DNA of 64,000 nt, from positions 186,001 through 250,000 of the forward strand of contig NZ_KB903443.1 of NCBI RefSeq assembly GCF_000379765.1. Reading direction: 5' to 3'. Of this stretch, positions 33,305 to 61,299 are shown in pieces (position 1 is the stretch's first letter; each line of letters begins with the position of its first letter). The position numbers were made by a program, and so were the translations under genes. Source of the stretch: Flexithrix dorotheae DSM 6795. Its GTDB lineage: Bacteria; Bacteroidota; Bacteroidia; Cytophagales; Flammeovirgaceae. The notes below the pieces were generated by a model. It had not been told where the DNA came from, ran no database searches, and saw nothing but the letters and a program-made list of their open reading frames with translations.

Positions 33305-35269
33305 TTAGTCAGCCCATGGATGATGCGCTAAAGGAAGGTTCATTTTTTTTAGCAGGTTAACAAACCTGGGGTCCTCCCTCAAAAAATCGAAAATTGGGTC
33401 TATCCCAATATAAGGCATATTCGGATCATGAGCTATAAAAGCTTTTTCCAAATAAAATAAAGCTTTTTCGATATTTCCAGCCCTGGTATAAAGCGTAGCA
33501 ATCTGCCAGGGTGTAACATAGGTAGTTTCGGACCGGAGGATGAGTTCCTCTGCCAGACTTTCCAAAGCCCCTGTATAACCATTTTCCTGCTCTCCTCTGA
33601 GCAATGCTTCAATTGCCTTCTCATCTTCTTTTGCAGCATAGGAGGTCTTCCAAATTTCAAGCGCCTCAGGATACATTCCCTTCATATGATAAGCTGTTCT
33701 AAGGGTAGATAAGGCAACCGGATCAGTTGGTGCTGTTTGTAAGGTTTTCCCCAATTGATCAATAGCCTTATCGAATTCTCTGGTATGCATCAAAGTCATC
33801 CCATCCAGAGCCTGGAATAAAGGATTAAATGGATCCAAATCCAGTGCTGTTTTTGATTGTTCAACTGCTTCCTCTGGTTTATGAAGAATATTCAAAACAT
33901 GAGATAAATAAGCCCTTGCCGCAGAAAAACTAGGATTTATCGCAATGGTTTTCTTTAATTCAATTTCAGCTTCCTGATAATTCCATTTCTGCCAACAGTT
34001 TAAAACACCCATTACATAGTGAATTTCTGCCGGAGGGTTTTCAATTTCCTGGGCTCTAACCTTTAGCTCCTCTATTTTCATATGCGCTCCACCTTCAAAA
34101 TAAGAGGTAAGTCCTTGTTGCATCCTGCCTCCCCACACATAGCATTTCCCTGCATAGGCCAAAGAATAATCAGGCTCTATTTCCAGGGCCAAATCAAAAT
34201 AGTTCATGGCCGTATTCAAATCCTTTTCTGTCAGTTTTTCCCAATGATACATCCCTTTGAGGTAGGCTTTATAAGCATCAGGGTTAATGGTTTTTGCATT
34301 GGCCAGATTATTATTCTCCTCCTCTGTAAGGCTAACATGGATCTCGTTGGTAATGCTTTTCACTATCTCACTTTGCAAAATCATTATTTTTCCAAAATCC
34401 TGATCAAAAACTTTTGACCATAATTGCATCTCCTCCGGGAAGTTGCCAATTAACTGAAGTTGAATTTTCACCTGGTCCTCATTTCCAACAACTGAACCTT
34501 CCAAAATGGTATTTACCTTTAATTCTTCCGCAATTTCTGTCAAAGTTTTTTTTTGGTTTTTGTATTGGGAAGTTGAAGTTCTCGAAATTACCCTTAGTCC
34601 GGAAACCTGCCCTAAGGAATTGATTAAAGAGGTATGCATACCATTGACAAAATAATCCTGCTCGGGATCATTGGTGAAATTTTTTAGTGGGAGGACTGCA
34701 ATGGAGTTTTGTGCTTTATCCTTATAATTCAGAAAATACTTAATGCTCCAAAAGATAAAAACAATAACCAGAAGCAATAGCAATAGATTCCATATTGTTA
34801 TTTTAGGTTTTTTAAGCTTATTTCCAGTTTGTTTTTCCGATGCTTCAAATGAGGTCTTGTTTGAACTAAAACTAACATTTTGTCTCAAATCAGATTCATC
34901 AGAAGTAGCTGCAATTCTTTCTTTTACCGGATTGTTTACTTCTCCTGGAGGATGCCCGTATTTTTTATTAAAACATTTATGAAAGTAGGTGGAACTATTA
35001 AACCCCACCAAATAAGCTATTTCGGAAGTTGTAGCTACATTTTCTTTTAACATTTTCATAGCTTCCTCCAACCTCACATCTCTTATAAACTGACTTATAG
35101 ATTTTCCTTCAATTCCTTTGAGCTTTCTGTGCAGATTCGATCTGCTCATACCCACTTCCCCGGCTAACTCTTCCACCCCAAATTGCTCATTTGCCAAATT
35201 TGCCAAAACAGTTTCCTTTAGTTTTTGTAAAAGAATTTTGTTTTGATTTAAACCATTAGAAGATTTCAT
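33305..35269 (-). CDS. Membrane-anchored AraC-type regulator with TolB-like and TPR domains
   Basis: A 654-residue protein. The N-terminal AraC helix-turn-helix (~15-115: FGVEELAGEVGMSRSNLHRKLKG and EIAYLVGFNSSTYFHKCFNKKYG) is cytoplasmic. One transmembrane helix at ~153-175 (LLLLLLVIVFIFWSIKYFL) follows. Then comes a TolB-N/FlgO-like domain (~185-320, SIAVLPLKNFTNDPEQDYFVNG) and several TPRs to the end, apparently periplasmic. This reads as a one-component regulator that senses outside the membrane. The signal and targets are unknown; the small lipoprotein gene lies just downstream. Confidence 0.87.
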   Translation of the reverse strand: MKSSNGLNQNKILLQKLKETVLANLANEQFGVEELAGEVGMSRSNLHRKLKGIEGKSISQFIRDVRLEEAMKMLKENVATTSEIAYLVGFNSSTYFHKCFNKKYGHPPGEVNNPVKERIAATSDESDLRQNVSFSSNKTSFEASEKQTGNKLKKPKITIWNLLLLLLVIVFIFWSIKYFLNYKDKAQNSIAVLPLKNFTNDPEQDYFVNGMHTSLINSLGQVSGLRVISRTSTSQYKNQKKTLTEIAEELKVNTILEGSVVGNEDQVKIQLQLIGNFPEEMQLWSKVFDQDFGKIMILQSEIVKSITNEIHVSLTEEENNNLANAKTINPDAYKAYLKGMYHWEKLTEKDLNTAMNYFDLALEIEPDYSLAYAGKCYVWGGRMQQGLTSYFEGGAHMKIEELKVRAQEIENPPAEIHYVMGVLNCWQKWNYQEAEIELKKTIAINPSFSAARAYLSHVLNILHKPEEAVEQSKTALDLDPFNPLFQALDGMTLMHTREFDKAIDQLGKTLQTAPTDPVALSTLRTAYHMKGMYPEALEIWKTSYAAKEDEKAIEALLRGEQENGYTGALESLAEELILRSETTYVTPWQIATLYTRAGNIEKALFYLEKAFIAHDPNMPYIGIDPIFDFLREDPRFVNLLKKMNLPLAHHPWAD

Positions 35270-56877: not shown

Positions 56878-59217
56878 ATGGAAGATAAAAAAACGCGTCA
56901 ACTTGCAGCTGTAATGTTTACCGATATTGTGGGATATACGGCCATTATGCAGCAGGATGAATCCAGAGCTCTAAGGGTGCGGAAAAAACACCGGTCAGTC
57001 TTCCAAAAACAACATGAATTACACCATGGAAAAATCATTCAGTATTATGGAGATGGTACTTTAAGTGTATTTAAAAGTGCCATTGAAGCTACAAATTGCG
57101 CCATTGCCATTCAGCAGTTATTGCAGGCCGATGATATTAATGGTATTCCCTTGCGAATAGGACTACACCTAGGAGACATTATTTACAGCGAAACTGAAGT
57201 TTATGGGGACGGGGTAAATGTTGCTTCACGAATTGAAAGTATGGGTATTTCTGGCTCCATACTTATTTCAGGAAAAGTAAACGAAGAACTAAAAAATCAG
57301 CCTTCAATTACTACCATTGCTCTGGGAAATTTCGAATTCAAAAATGTATCTGCCCCAATAGAAGTTTTCGCCATTAGCAATGATGGCATAAAAATCCCCA
57401 AAAATTCCCAGCTAAAAGGGAAGCAGCAACAAAGTGGAAAAACCATTGCCGTTTTGCCCTTTGCCAATATGAGTGCCAGTCAGGAAAATGAATTTTTCTG
57501 TGACGGCATTACCGAAGAAATTATCAATGCACTGGCAAAAATTAAGCAACTGAAAGTTACTTCTCGTACCTCCTCTTTCTTTTTTAAAAACAAGAATTTT
57601 CCCATTACCCAGATTGGCAAGGAACTGAATGTATCCACCATTTTGGAAGGAAGTGTGCGAATTGCAGGAAAGATGATCAGGATTACCGCCCAATTGATTC
57701 AGGCGGAAGATGATTTCCACTTCTGGTCGGAAACATGGGACAGGAAACTGGAAAATATTTTTGAAATTCAGGATGAAATAAGCCTTGCCATTGCCGATAA
57801 ACTTCGGGAACAATTCGGCCATTTTGAGATTCAGAACCATCTGGTTGAAAAACAGACGGAAAATTTTGACGCATACGAATTATCCCTAAAAGCCAAATTT
57901 CATTTTAATAAATGGAATGCTGAAGATGTACAAATCGCCATTCCACTTTATGAAAAAGCGCTGGAACTAGACCCCAACCATACCGCCTCATTGGTAGGCG
58001 CTGCCGATTGTTACAGTTTTATGGCTACTACTGGTTTTTTACCTCTTGAAGAAGCCTGGAGCAAATCCTATGACCTTACCAACAGGGCTTTGAATATAAA
58101 TCCGGAATTACCCGGTGGATTGTATCAGTTGGCTAATTATTCCTTTTTTATTTTATGTGATTATGCCGCCGCTTTAAAACTGACTTTACAAGTTTTGGAA
58201 TTAAAATCCAATTATGTGGATGCCCGTCAGTTTCTTTCATTTTTATACATTATTGCAGGGAAAAAGGACGCAGCAGAAAAACAGCTGGAAATTGCGCTGG
58301 GTATTGACCCTCTATCCCCAGAGACCCTATTTTTTAATGCCTATTTTCATTACATGACAGAAGATTATGAAAAATCCCTGGAACTTTTGGATAAATGTCT
58401 GGCTCAGAATGAAAAAAATATTCCTGCACATTCCATAAAATGTTATTGTTTATTAAAGCTTGGTCAATACGATGAAGCACTTCATTATTATGAAAAAGTG
58501 CCTGAGGAAATCGTTGTTCAGGGAGATAAATTAGGAATAACGGCATTGGCTTATGCTTTTAAAAAAGACGCAGCAAATACAAAAAAATACCTTGAAATAT
58601 TATTGCAAAAAGCAGCAAAGCCAGAAGGCTTTAGGGAACAATCCTTTTTATTTCTAATGTATGGGATTACCAGCAATTTTGACAAGGCTTTTGAATGGAT
58701 TAAAGAGGCTTTGGAAAATAAGGCTTCCTTTCTTCTTTTTCATTTTGCAGACCCGATGGTCGATCCCATAAAAAATGATCCGAGGTATCAACACTTCCAG
58801 GGTCTGATTTTTGGTGAAAACTTCCCCAGGGAAAAAAAAGGAACCAAAAAACCTTTACTGGATAAGAGAACCACTCATGAATATTCCGAACGGTTAATTT
58901 CACATATCAAAGAGCATGAACCCTACCTTGATCCTAATTTGTCATTACGAAGTTTAGCACGGCAAATTAATCTCCATCCAAACCAACTCTCATGGTTGCT
59001 CAATGAAAGCCTGGGTAAAAACTTTAGTGAATTTATTAATTATTATCGGGTGGAAAAATTTAAGGCATTGTCTCAGGACCCGGAAAAAAACCACATCACA
59101 CTGATTGGACTGGCCTACGAAAGCGGTTTCAATTCCAAAACTGTTTTCAATACCTATTTCAAAAAAGAAACCGGGCTAACTCCTAAACAATATCTAAAGC
59201 TTCAAGAGAAAAAATAA
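56878..59217 (+). CDS. Class III nucleotide cyclase fused to TolB-like, TPR and AraC domains
   Basis: A 779-residue protein. The cyclase domain (1-~170) keeps metal Asp 16 (FTDIVGYT) and Asp 59 (YYGDGT), Lys 52, and the transition-state Asn 114 / Arg 118 (NVASRIE), so it should be active. A TolB-N/FlgO-like domain (~188-320, TIAVLPFANMSASQENEFFC) and TPRs (~330-630) follow. The C-terminus is an AraC double helix-turn-helix (~675-775, LSLRSLARQINLHPNQLSWLL and ITLIGLAYESGFNSKTVF). No membrane helix is seen, unlike the related regulator at 33305-35269. It appears to couple cAMP/cGMP synthesis to direct DNA binding. Confidence 0.9.
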   Translation: MEDKKTRQLAAVMFTDIVGYTAIMQQDESRALRVRKKHRSVFQKQHELHHGKIIQYYGDGTLSVFKSAIEATNCAIAIQQLLQADDINGIPLRIGLHLGDIIYSETEVYGDGVNVASRIESMGISGSILISGKVNEELKNQPSITTIALGNFEFKNVSAPIEVFAISNDGIKIPKNSQLKGKQQQSGKTIAVLPFANMSASQENEFFCDGITEEIINALAKIKQLKVTSRTSSFFFKNKNFPITQIGKELNVSTILEGSVRIAGKMIRITAQLIQAEDDFHFWSETWDRKLENIFEIQDEISLAIADKLREQFGHFEIQNHLVEKQTENFDAYELSLKAKFHFNKWNAEDVQIAIPLYEKALELDPNHTASLVGAADCYSFMATTGFLPLEEAWSKSYDLTNRALNINPELPGGLYQLANYSFFILCDYAAALKLTLQVLELKSNYVDARQFLSFLYIIAGKKDAAEKQLEIALGIDPLSPETLFFNAYFHYMTEDYEKSLELLDKCLAQNEKNIPAHSIKCYCLLKLGQYDEALHYYEKVPEEIVVQGDKLGITALAYAFKKDAANTKKYLEILLQKAAKPEGFREQSFLFLMYGITSNFDKAFEWIKEALENKASFLLFHFADPMVDPIKNDPRYQHFQGLIFGENFPREKKGTKKPLLDKRTTHEYSERLISHIKEHEPYLDPNLSLRSLARQINLHPNQLSWLLNESLGKNFSEFINYYRVEKFKALSQDPEKNHITLIGLAYESGFNSKTVFNTYFKKETGLTPKQYLKLQEKK

Positions 59218-59533
59218 TCTGTTTTTTAATTCAATATTCATTATCCTTGTTTATAACATGGATGGGTAAAATAGGCGATTGTAATGCCAGCCTTGCAGAA
59301 AATCACAAAATTTCCTTTATGGTGATTCTAAAATTCAGATAAAGTTAAGTCTCTGTAGAGTCTGCATTTTCGCAAACCTGCGTCTTTGAAGCTTGATTGA
59401 CGCAAAGTCTCTGAGGAAGACCTTGCTGAGACAAATACGGCTCAACTTTTAAAACCTTTCCCTTTCTTCCTATTCGTCCATTCTCAATTTGTTCGGATTT
59501 ATAATCGCGAACGCTTTACCCCTTTGTCCCTCC
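59218..59533. other. Gene-free stretch
   Basis: No supported gene or hairpin is visible. Some short partial repeats (GTCTCTG, GCAAA/GCGTC) occur around 59350-59420 with no clear structure. Confidence 0.35.
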
Positions 59534-59541
59534 TACCTTTG
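59534..59541 (+). promoter_or_regulatory. -7 element of the MDR/DUF4386 pair
   Basis: TACCTTTG matches TAnnTTTG and lies 31 bp before the ATG at 59573. There is no TTTG at the expected -33 position. Confidence 0.45.
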
Positions 59542-59572: not shown

Positions 59573-60577
59573 ATGACAAACTATAAAGGTTTAAAAATGA
59601 AATCAGTTTTTTGCTCAAAATATGGTTCCCCTCATGTTCTTCAGCTCAGAGAAGTAAATAAACCAGTTCCCAAGCCCAATGAAATCCTGGTTAAAGTGCA
59701 TGCTGCTTCGGTCACTGCTGCAGATACAATGATCCGGAAAGGAAGTCCATATTTTGGCAGGTTATTCCTTGGATTAATGAAACCCAAAAACCCAGTACCA
59801 GGAACAGGATTTTCCGGGGTGGTAGAATCACTGGGAGAGGATGTTAAACAATTTCTGGAAGGAGATGAAGTATTTGGAGAGATAGTTTTAAGTGTAGGTA
59901 CAAATGCAGAATACGTATGTATACCCGAAGATGGACTTGTGGCCAGGAAACCTAAAAACATATCCCACAAGGAAGCCGCACCAGTCTGTGATGGGGCTTT
60001 AACTTCGATTAATTTTCTAAAAGAACTGGCTAAAATTGAAAAAGGTCAACATGTATTGATCATTGGCGCCTCTGGAAGTTTGGGAACTGCTGCTGTACAA
60101 TTGGCTAAACATTTTGGAGCAAAAGTTACCGGAGTTTGCAGCACTTCTAATAAGGCTTTAGTGAAGGCACTGGGCGCAGATCAGGTAATTGATTACACCA
60201 AAGAAGATTATACAAAATCCAATCAGCAATACGATATTGTTTACGATACAGTAGGAAAAAGTTCATTTCCGAATTGTAAAAACATACTGAACAACGATGG
60301 TATTTATATTTCACCGGTACTCAACCTTCAATTGCTTTTCCAAATGCTGGTCAGCCCCAAAAAGGGCAAAAAAGCAAAGTTTGATGCCACAGGATTAAAA
60401 TCAATTCCGGAATTAAAAATCATGTTATCAGAACTGCAGAAGCTTTTGGAAAACGGAAAACTAACTACGGTAATTGACAAATCATATTCTTTAGAGGAAA
60501 TTGTTTCGGCCCATGAATATGTGGACACCGGCCGTAAAAAAGGCAACATCGTACTTGATATCCATTCCCAAAATTAA
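59573..60577 (+). CDS. NAD(P)-dependent medium-chain (MDR) alcohol dehydrogenase/quinone oxidoreductase
   Basis: A 334-residue protein. N-terminal GroES-like domain (VLQLREVNKPVPKPNEILVKVHAASVTAADTM...VPGTGFSGVVESLG), then the NADP-binding Rossmann motif GASGSLGTAAVQLAKHFGAKVTGVCST. The catalytic zinc ligands of alcohol dehydrogenases (Cys/His pairs) are not in place, so the zinc-independent quinone-oxidoreductase branch is more likely. An ATG 24 bp downstream (MKSVFCSKYG) follows AAAGG and could be the true start. The next gene starts 20 bp later. Confidence 0.9.
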   Translation: MTNYKGLKMKSVFCSKYGSPHVLQLREVNKPVPKPNEILVKVHAASVTAADTMIRKGSPYFGRLFLGLMKPKNPVPGTGFSGVVESLGEDVKQFLEGDEVFGEIVLSVGTNAEYVCIPEDGLVARKPKNISHKEAAPVCDGALTSINFLKELAKIEKGQHVLIIGASGSLGTAAVQLAKHFGAKVTGVCSTSNKALVKALGADQVIDYTKEDYTKSNQQYDIVYDTVGKSSFPNCKNILNNDGIYISPVLNLQLLFQMLVSPKKGKKAKFDATGLKSIPELKIMLSELQKLLENGKLTTVIDKSYSLEEIVSAHEYVDTGRKKGNIVLDIHSQN

Positions 60578-60597: not shown

Positions 60598-61299
60598 ATG
60601 AATTTTTCCACAATTCCCAAGCAGATGGACTCCAGAATTGCCGGAGTTCTCTATTTGCTAATTGCGATATTTAGCGGCTTTAGTATGGGATATCTTCCTA
60701 ATCTCATTATCGCTACCGGAGATGCAGTAACTACTGCACAAAATCTACAGACCTATTCCGGAATTTTCAGAGTGGGTTTTGCAGCCGATATTCTGGTGAT
60801 TTTACTGGAAATCATGCTTACCGTCATCCTTTATTTCATATTAAAAAAAGTTCACCCAAAAATAGCCCTTATGGCACTTTTAAGCAGGTTTGCTATGGCT
60901 GTAATTATGGGTGTCAATTTGCTTAATTACCTCATTCCAATGGCTCTATTAGACAACCCGACCTATTTAGAGGTTTTTCATTCAGATCAATTGCAGGCTC
61001 TGGCTTTGTTATTTTTGGAAGCTCATCAATTTGTAGTTTTAATCTGGGGTTTATTTTTTGGAATTCACTTGGCTCTCCTTGGATTTTTGGTTTTTAAATC
61101 CGGGTTTTACCCCAAAATTTTAGGTATTTTATTAATCATCGGAAGCTTCGGATATACCACTGAAAGCATAGGAAAATTCACCTTGCCCGGAAACGAAATT
61201 TTTGAAATGCTAGCCATGGTATTGTTAGGATTTGCCGTTATCGGAGAATTGTCATTTGCCTTCTGGTTGTTGATAAAGGGGGCGAAGCAAGCGGTATGA
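60598..61299 (+). CDS. DUF4386 membrane protein
   Basis: A 233-residue protein with about six transmembrane helices (first at ~14-34, last at ~205-228). It opens with RIAGVLYLLIAIFSGFSMGYLP and has GLFFGIHLALLGFLVFKSGFYPKILGILLIIGSFGY, typical of DUF4386, whose function is unknown. In this order, 20 bp after the MDR gene, it probably shares the same transcript. Repeat element A follows 15 bp past the stop. Confidence 0.9.
   Translation: MNFSTIPKQMDSRIAGVLYLLIAIFSGFSMGYLPNLIIATGDAVTTAQNLQTYSGIFRVGFAADILVILLEIMLTVILYFILKKVHPKIALMALLSRFAMAVIMGVNLLNYLIPMALLDNPTYLEVFHSDQLQALALLFLEAHQFVVLIWGLFFGIHLALLGFLVFKSGFYPKILGILLIIGSFGYTTESIGKFTLPGNEIFEMLAMVLLGFAVIGELSFAFWLLIKGAKQAV

Follow-up and report, generated by a model that had tools for sequence, protein, structure and literature searches.

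The uninterrupted reading frame described here lies in a window of 64,000 nucleotides from Flexithrix dorotheae DSM 6795 (the whole stretch of DNA that was analysed). It probably encodes a one-component regulator of transcription that resides in the cytoplasm and carries an optional enzymatic head, the predicted target being the neighbouring MDR-DUF4386 operon. The comparison of homologous loci shows that a predicted regulator made of a TolB-like domain, a TPR region and an AraC-type domain is conserved near an MDR gene, with a promoter-proximal repeat in common, in most of the Bacteroidota loci examined. In one clade a putative class III cyclase is fused to the N-terminus of this regulator; the alignments show invariant metal and transition-state residues, and a Gln with an acidic partner in the columns predicted to specify the base. 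The repeat, a candidate operator, persists in most loci irrespective of the cyclase and was not found beside the AraC-less cyclase-TolB-TPR proteins examined. The features are listed in Table 1.

Table 1. Features of the regulator gene and of its predicted target operon (window positions).
Feature	Position	Strand	Evidence
779-aa regulator (cyclase domain, TolB-like domain, TPR, AraC HTH)	56878..59217	+	ORF, Pfam, AlphaFold2 model
Class III nucleotidyl cyclase domain, residues 6-169	56893..57384	+	Pfam, PDB alignments, fold, column comparison
Gln55 codon, canonical purine-binding Lys column	57040..57042	+	Alignment; Q in 50/50 rows
Glu107 codon, canonical base-specifying Asp column	57196..57198	+	Alignment to Ma1120; column comparison
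TolB N-terminal-like domain, about residues 186-320	57433..57837	+	Fold; FlgO profile under cut-off
TPR superhelix, about residues 330-648	57865..58821	+	Pfam, AlphaFold2 model, fold
AraC-type DNA-binding domain, residues 693-774	58954..59199	+	HTH_18
22-bp inverted-repeat operator candidate GTTCGGATTTATAATCGCGAAC	59491..59512	+	Intergenic comparison, motif searches
TACCTTTG, fits TAnnTTTG	59534..59541	+	Sequence; 21 nt after inverted repeat
MDR-superfamily quinone/enone-oxidoreductase-like protein, predicted target	59573..60577	+	Pfam; NCBIfam (below cut-offs); PDB relatives; synteny
DUF4386 membrane protein	60598..61299	+	ORF, Pfam, synteny; 20 nt past MDR gene

The frame 56878-59217 of the forward strand is a single ORF of 779 codons, in which the profiles Guanylate_cyc and HTH_18 are both matched; a cyclase and an AraC domain in one chain, as proposed in the preliminary description, are therefore borne out. 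Guanylate_cyc (PF00211) covers the residues 6-156 (E-value 5.6e-14, 52.6 bits for a cut-off of 21.9), and the residues 6-169 of the AlphaFold2 model superimpose on the Ma1120 structure 5d0e (with GTP) with a Z-score of 24.4 and an rmsd of 1.8 Å over 163 residues. Family profile and fold both place the domain among the class III cyclases. The second domain, which the preliminary description did not mention, displays the TolB N-terminal fold: modelled alone (mean pLDDT 87), it aligns with TolB 2hqs over 119 residues (Z 13.3, rmsd 2.5 Å). TolB is outranked by FlgT (Z 14.9) and by a flagellar ring structure (Z 13.6), both with an rmsd over 5 Å, and the FlgO profile (PF17680) matches the residues 179-278 with 14.1 bits, below its curated cut-off of 22.6. 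The TPRs already suspected are detected by Pfam at about residues 350-543. A Rap-like match of this region (Z 21.1, rmsd 4.2 Å, 310 residues) was set aside as a sign of peptide sensing and given no weight, because TPR superhelices resemble one another. HTH_18 is found at residues 693-774 (E-value 8.3e-14, 52.1 bits for a cut-off of 33.6) and covers the positions 1-79 of the 80 of the profile, so that the AraC domain is indeed full, with the double HTH of the AraC/XylS regulators. The AlphaFold2 model of the 779 residues was obtained from a 64-sequence alignment (mean pLDDT 89), and Foldseek with the whole model returned the same families as the other fold search. Two presumed membrane proteins encoded in the window reach a 19-residue Kyte-Doolittle mean of 2.6, and the best such mean in the regulator is 1.45; this low peak, with no typical membrane span, is consistent with the soluble chain expected from the first inspection. 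Among 22 cyclase-bearing proteins, the TolB-like domain is the best conserved region (mean identity of 76%), followed by the cyclase (68%), the AraC region (residues 665-775, 63%) and the TPR (38%). The last, being the most variable, looks like a variable sensing surface.

A homologue search of genome contigs yielded 79 loci, with titles naming Bacteroidota taxa or plain "bacterium". L107 (a copy of L009), L088 and L004 (both equal to the window) and L005 (the partner of L089) were dropped before the counts. The reading frames of L056 and L051 are seemingly interrupted near the N-terminus, and their separate open pieces were used. Homologues preserve the domain architecture. The architecture survey that had been called for, run on 395 sampled Bacteroidota genomes, recovered the full domain order in at least six, including the genome of the window; two candidates were scored per genome, so that these counts are lower bounds, and the rows were sorted by query range. 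Among the 66 rows listed, six have the full order, 39 are cyclase-TolB-TPR proteins without AraC (the commonest type), 16 are TolB-TPR-AraC proteins without cyclase and five are of other types. Two other domain orders were encountered, AraC-cyclase-TolB-TPR (L029) and GNAT-TolB-TPR-AraC (L079).

The metal-binding residues Asp16 and Asp59 and the transition-state residues Asn114 and Arg118 are invariant in the 24 cyclase rows (the window and 23 homologues). The earlier statement that all visible catalytic residues are kept, Lys52 among them, holds for these four and fails for the base-specifying pair. Lys52 itself lies in a variable column (K in just 8 of 24 rows, E, N, D or R in the rest), which rules it out as the substrate lysine. 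In the PDB alignment it is Gln55 that stands opposite K101 of Ma1120, and Glu107 opposite D157; according to the available part of PMC4215837, K101 and D157 are the substrate residues of Ma1120 and were mutated to shift its preference between ATP and GTP. Neither the canonical Lys and Asp pair of adenylyl cyclases nor the canonical guanylyl cyclase pair is present, Gln55 and Glu107 occupying those columns instead. The guanylyl cyclase pair consists of a Glu and a residue of Cys or Gly type. As judged from the alignments, the catalytic core is intact except for the base-specifying pair, and the conservation of Asp16, Asp59, Asn114 and Arg118 makes catalysis plausible, with a non-canonical Q-E base pocket. 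The dN/dS ratio of the cyclase domain is 0.077 between the window and its 86%-identical homologue L009, and 0.075 between L050 and L019, which indicates that the domain is held by purifying selection where it is present. With this ratio and the invariant catalytic columns, a pseudo-cyclase produced by decay was rejected for the 779-residue protein. The idea that one protein might make a second messenger and bind DNA consequently keeps, at the level of residues and motifs, a predicted catalytic core (bar the base-specifying pair) and gains a candidate operator and a predicted downstream target operon, two elements absent from the preliminary description; it loses Lys52 and has to accommodate the unusual pocket.

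The column of Gln55 is occupied by Gln in all 50 cyclase domains compared. Gln alone is not rare at this position, since it is also found in four of the six alignable other cyclases of the same genome (L002, L005, L007 and L008; K in L003, E in L001; L006 was left out). In column 107, the 27 C-terminal AraC fusions have E (25) or D (2), whereas the 22 cyclases without AraC have G (20), A (1) or T (1). These 22 are Bacteroidota cyclase-TolB-TPR proteins (L136-L156 and L109), alike in their three N-terminal modules and all with Gln in the Gln55 column. The single cyclase with an N-terminal AraC domain has G. A quick tree, left unrooted, has the 27 C-terminal AraC fusions on one side of a branch with a support of 100, and the change of residue 107 and the fusion may thus be a single historical event; because they are one clade, the Fisher test of acidic residue against AraC (27/27 versus 0/21) is not independent evidence. 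We infer that ATP is favoured over GTP as substrate, because the amide of Gln can take the role of Lys towards N1, and Glu that of Asp as acceptor of the N6 hydrogen. Substrate selection in class III cyclases becomes testable through this invariant Gln, whose partner is acidic in the AraC-fused clade and mostly Gly in the AraC-less proteins.

Downstream of the regulator, the order is the inverted repeat, the promoter-like TAnnTTTG box, the MDR start at 59573 and then DUF4386; the MDR and DUF4386 genes are probably in the same operon. TAnnTTTG is the -7 box of Bacteroidota promoters. Among loci with at least 1300 nt downstream, the window being left out, 11 of 19 with a cyclase and 39 of 55 without one have an MDR gene on the same strand within 4.2 kb downstream of the regulator; DUF4386 lies within 4.2 kb in 5 of 19 and 17 of 55, respectively. 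Only one of 74 loci has an MDR gene within six genes upstream of the regulator, and 8 of the 19 cyclase-bearing loci with enough sequence have none within six genes downstream. The cyclase-less TolB-TPR-AraC regulators of Bacteroidota (main-clade members 42-63% identical, the cyclase head missing) mostly have the same regulator core, together with the candidate operator and a neighbouring MDR gene. As the association between regulator, MDR gene and candidate operator is kept in these homologues, the cyclase is not needed for it.

The 22-bp repeat is matched at 15 or more of its 22 positions in 39 of 41 regulator-MDR regions (including the window). A weight matrix built from these regions detected, at a threshold of 17 bits, 82 sites in 80 loci (904,507 bases); the reversed sequence gave one site and three Markov resamples gave 0, 0 and 1. 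A site is found at most 250 nt upstream of 47 of 55 MDR genes versus 34 of 662 other ORFs. Within 500 nt past the regulator, it is present in 60 of 74 main-clade loci (16 of 22 with cyclase, 44 of 52 without; no site there in the six remaining cyclase-bearing loci) and in none of the seven loci of a diverged paralogue clade. Many of the loci counted here also served to derive the matrix, which makes these counts partly circular; the independent tests described below therefore matter most. The distance from the site to TAnnTTTG is 21 nt for 16 of the 82 sites, 41-42 nt for 34 and 19 nt for one, while 31 have no such box within 60 nt. Where the MDR gene is divergent or separated from the regulator by several genes (L052, L044, L045, L032 and L081), the repeat accompanies the former and not the latter; this favours an operator and argues against an mRNA 3' element. 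In some species, additional sites are located before serine-hydrolase/beta-lactamase-like, esterase, NAD-binding and TonB-receptor-like genes.

Outside the motif building, the AraC-bearing loci of a separate search have a site of at least 17 bits in 8 of 8 cases (the weakest with 17.2 bits), and the cyclase-TolB-TPR loci without AraC (L136-L156) have one in 0 of 21, with a best score of 9.2 bits. In the 395 genomes, a site with at most two mismatches is present in 5 of 9 genomes having an AraC-bearing match of at least 40% identity versus 7 of 386 others (Fisher test 1.2e-6, ignoring kinship), these nine "main-clade" genomes being picked by identity and not from the tree; the pattern read in reverse gave 0. 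For all 21 genomes with any AraC-bearing match, the proportions are 5 of 21 versus 7 of 374. These seven genomes weigh against the proposed regulation, as do the cyclase-bearing loci that have no site past the regulator or no MDR gene downstream. The genome of the window (9.5 Mb) has a single site with at most three mismatches, at 59491-59512, and the pattern read backwards also has one match in this genome at the same tolerance. Autoregulation through the 22-bp site is unsupported in this genome because of this single occurrence; elsewhere, a site lies just upstream of the regulator in 2 of 75 main-clade anchors. Proteins of the AraC family usually bind direct repeats, which makes a near-palindrome unusual, and another factor could bind it. 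In these motif comparisons the conserved promoter site goes along with the AraC domain, which may be the part that recognises the 22-bp repeat upstream of the MDR gene.

In the mechanism that we propose, the AraC domains of a dimer would bind the inverted repeat just upstream of the TAnnTTTG box, and the bound regulator would activate the MDR-DUF4386 operon, a location immediately before the -7 box region being suited to an activator. The TPR and TolB-like domains may sense a ligand or a partner, probably linked to the reactive substrate of the MDR enzyme. This enzyme resembles quinone and enone reductases (NCBIfam matches below cut-offs, PDB relatives), and our guess for the signal is hence an electrophile or a redox cue. 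The cyclase, which would need the dimer for its composite active sites, may produce a cyclic nucleotide, with cAMP likelier than cGMP, which would either be a second output or report the state sensed by the TPR and TolB-like domains. Possible receivers are encoded in the genome (38 cNMP_binding matches, 35 of them over the family cut-off). Class III cyclases act as dimers and the inverted repeat hints at a dimer, so that the cyclase and DNA-binding functions could be coupled. A speculative extension, which we regard as rather unlikely, is that the operator (or the sensed ligand) pairs two chains and so closes the two-chain active site of the cyclase. If this were true, the cyclic nucleotide would be made only while the protein sits on the MDR promoter, or the DNA would be released upon turnover, and one molecule would be both a transcription factor and an occupancy-dependent source of second messenger. 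Normally, a second messenger and a transcription factor belong to distinct molecules. The family unites cyclase and regulator in many Bacteroidota, with a short candidate operator and, in the genome of the window, one predicted target operon; as its natural versions with and without cyclase have the operator in common, they offer a ready-made comparison of what the cyclase contributes.

The proposed mechanism competes with other readings of the cyclase domain. It could be a nucleotide sensor, in which an NTP held in the Q-E pocket switches the AraC domain by its binding or slow turnover, the product being irrelevant. The two non-canonical base-specifying columns would suit a sensor, as would the absence of the head from many homologues that keep operator and target, which is expected of an optional input domain, and its replacement by a GNAT domain in L079. 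However, the invariance of the metal Asp pair, Asn114 and Arg118 in 24 of 24 rows goes beyond the needs of a pure sensor, and PMC4452763 describes Rv0386, a cyclase-LuxR protein, as enzymatically active; we consider this reading unlikely, although it is the likeliest of the alternatives. It is improbable that the cyclase is the main output, merely placed or fed back upon by the AraC domain. The AraC-less cyclase-TolB-TPR relatives would then be complete signalling proteins, and they are the commonest match type (39 among the 66 rows listed), but within the AraC-bearing family the cyclase comes and goes, and what persists is the regulator with the candidate operator and the MDR gene.

We hold it for very improbable that the inverted repeat is an RNA element, a terminator or processing hairpin at the 3' end of the regulator mRNA. 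Its letters could pair in RNA and it is often situated a few tens of nucleotides past the stop codon of the regulator; yet it follows the MDR gene when this is divergent or distant, lies, for 50 of 82 sites, at a fixed spacing of 21 or 41-42 nt from TAnnTTTG, and is found before non-MDR genes too. The least probable of these readings is a cyclic pyrimidine nucleotide as product, as made by the Pycsar cyclases. The base pocket is unlike that of standard adenylyl and guanylyl cyclases, and two PycC profiles are matched, though weakly (E-values of 4.5e-4 and 8.1e-4). The class III cyclase structure 3mr7 gives a far better match (1.7e-22); 7r65, a PycC structure, came at 0.034 in a profile search (among the best 60 of 70 matches). 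Two neighbours scanned gave no clear match to defence families. The base residues given for PycC clades in the available part of PMC11224242 (Y50/D94/R97, F100/R142/Q144 and F60/K104/F109) include no evident Q-E pair, as judged without alignment.

The domain combination can be compared to known systems. HilA/CadC-type regulators likewise couple a DNA-binding domain to a TolB-like/TPR sensory part (NCBIfam PRK12370 below cut-off; CadC 3ly7, Z 9.9), without a cyclase. Their HTH is of the winged-helix type. In the class III cyclase Rv0386 of Mycobacterium tuberculosis, the substrate residues are a non-standard Q/N pair, and the Q-E pocket, if confirmed, would be a further solution of base recognition next to K-D, E-C and Q/N. 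Rv0386, Rv1358 and Rv2488c are the Mclx proteins, in which a cyclase domain is joined to a LuxR-type HTH (PMC4452763 and PMC3466318). For Rv0386, PMC4452763 describes adenylyl cyclase activity, with a guanylyl side activity of about 20%. The likeness is that one soluble chain combines a class III cyclase domain with an HTH for DNA binding; the 779-residue regulator differs by its AraC-type HTH, its TolB-like and TPR middle, its phylum and its Q-E pair, and by the candidate operator and target gene proposed for it. Ma1120 of Mycobacterium avium (5d0e, 4wp9) and 3mr7 of Silicibacter pomeroyi share the cyclase fold (Z of 24.4 and 22.5) and the metal Asp pair, but they have K/D in the base-specifying columns versus Q/E here, Ma1120 has an Ala at the position of Asn114 (PMC4215837, available part), and the crystallised domains are without a DNA-binding domain. 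No cyclase-AraC fusion was described in the titles and abstract openings of the open-access literature searched, nor in the available parts of PMC1183210 and PMC4886424. Fusions of a cyclase to an HTH are already known (CHD and LuxR, in the available parts of PMC3466318 and PMC4452763), and the AraC fusion would be a new variation on them.

The history of the cyclase head was followed on a quick tree of the common TolB-TPR-AraC part (84 rows, 23 with cyclase), from which 24 matches were excluded (fragments, AraC-only or TolB-only matches, L109 and L029|0). The cyclase label requires 11 changes on this tree, eight of them forced by well-supported branches. The single clade of cyclases and the scattered labels on the regulator tree point to one fusion followed by repeated loss, plus some exchange of heads, as far as such trees can tell. 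Thus the head of L051 groups with L078 (support of 91) and its body with one L037 paralogue (100), and the two nearby L037 paralogues share 93% identity in the cyclase, 84% in TolB, 21% in the TPR and 51% in the AraC domain. When the 1200 nt preceding homologues without cyclase were inspected, remnants of the domain were detected in only 1 of 61 cases (L023; 58 had at least 500 nt upstream), which contradicts slow decay of the head in these homologues and argues for clean loss or head exchange. The head, being often absent, is dispensable, and from the distribution of the domains the predicted cyclase is an optional add-on to the MDR-locus regulator. Among four neighbours scanned in the cyclase-less paralogue clade, no separate cyclase gene occurs near L110 and L117, and one lies near L089 (L005) and near L054.

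The TolB-TPR part of the 779-residue regulator is found in several other domain combinations (see table). Within the window, a second protein of swapped domain order, with an N-terminal AraC domain, shares about 26% identity with the regulator across TolB-TPR. Among the homologous loci, a GNAT acetyltransferase domain replaces the cyclase in L079, where the candidate operator and the MDR gene are present downstream. In L029, the cyclase retains Gln55, and column 107, the second base-specifying column, is occupied by Gly. The two neighbouring paralogues of L037 have cyclase heads that are 93% identical and TPR regions that are only 21% identical, a disparity suggestive of head exchange or gene conversion.

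Coordinates of the features in the window and in homologous loci
Feature	Locus	Position	Strand	Domain order
Relative of the regulator	window	33305-35269	-	AraC, membrane span, TolB-like, TPR
Spacer from regulator stop to candidate operator	window	59218-59490
GNAT fusion	L079	5569-7854		GNAT, TolB-like, TPR, AraC
Rearranged homologue	L029	1432-4044		AraC, cyclase, TolB-like, TPR
First paralogue	L037	1700-4105
Second paralogue	L037	5947-8319

The genome of F. dorotheae itself encodes nine Guanylate_cyc domains, and Gln occupies the lysine column in four of the six other cyclases aligned. A separate gene of about 374 codons, containing a cyclase domain, adjoins a cyclase-less TolB-TPR-AraC paralogue in L005/L089 (contig C69 of the same genome) and in L054. 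The two genes are divergent in L089 and co-directional in L054; no such gene lies beside the cyclase-less paralogues of L110 and L117.

The spacer between the regulator and the candidate operator measures 273 nt in the window versus 22 nt in L009. Pieces of this spacer match at least 20 other sites of the genome with 70-90% identity, so it appears to have received insertions of short non-coding repeats that are dispersed in the genome. By eye, a third half-site resembling ATTCCGAAC was detected about 10 bp past the inverted repeat in L024, L022, L053, L054 and others. On visual comparison of the sequences, it seems to accompany the longer spacing to the -7 box (41-42 nt), which corresponds to two helical turns beyond 21 nt.
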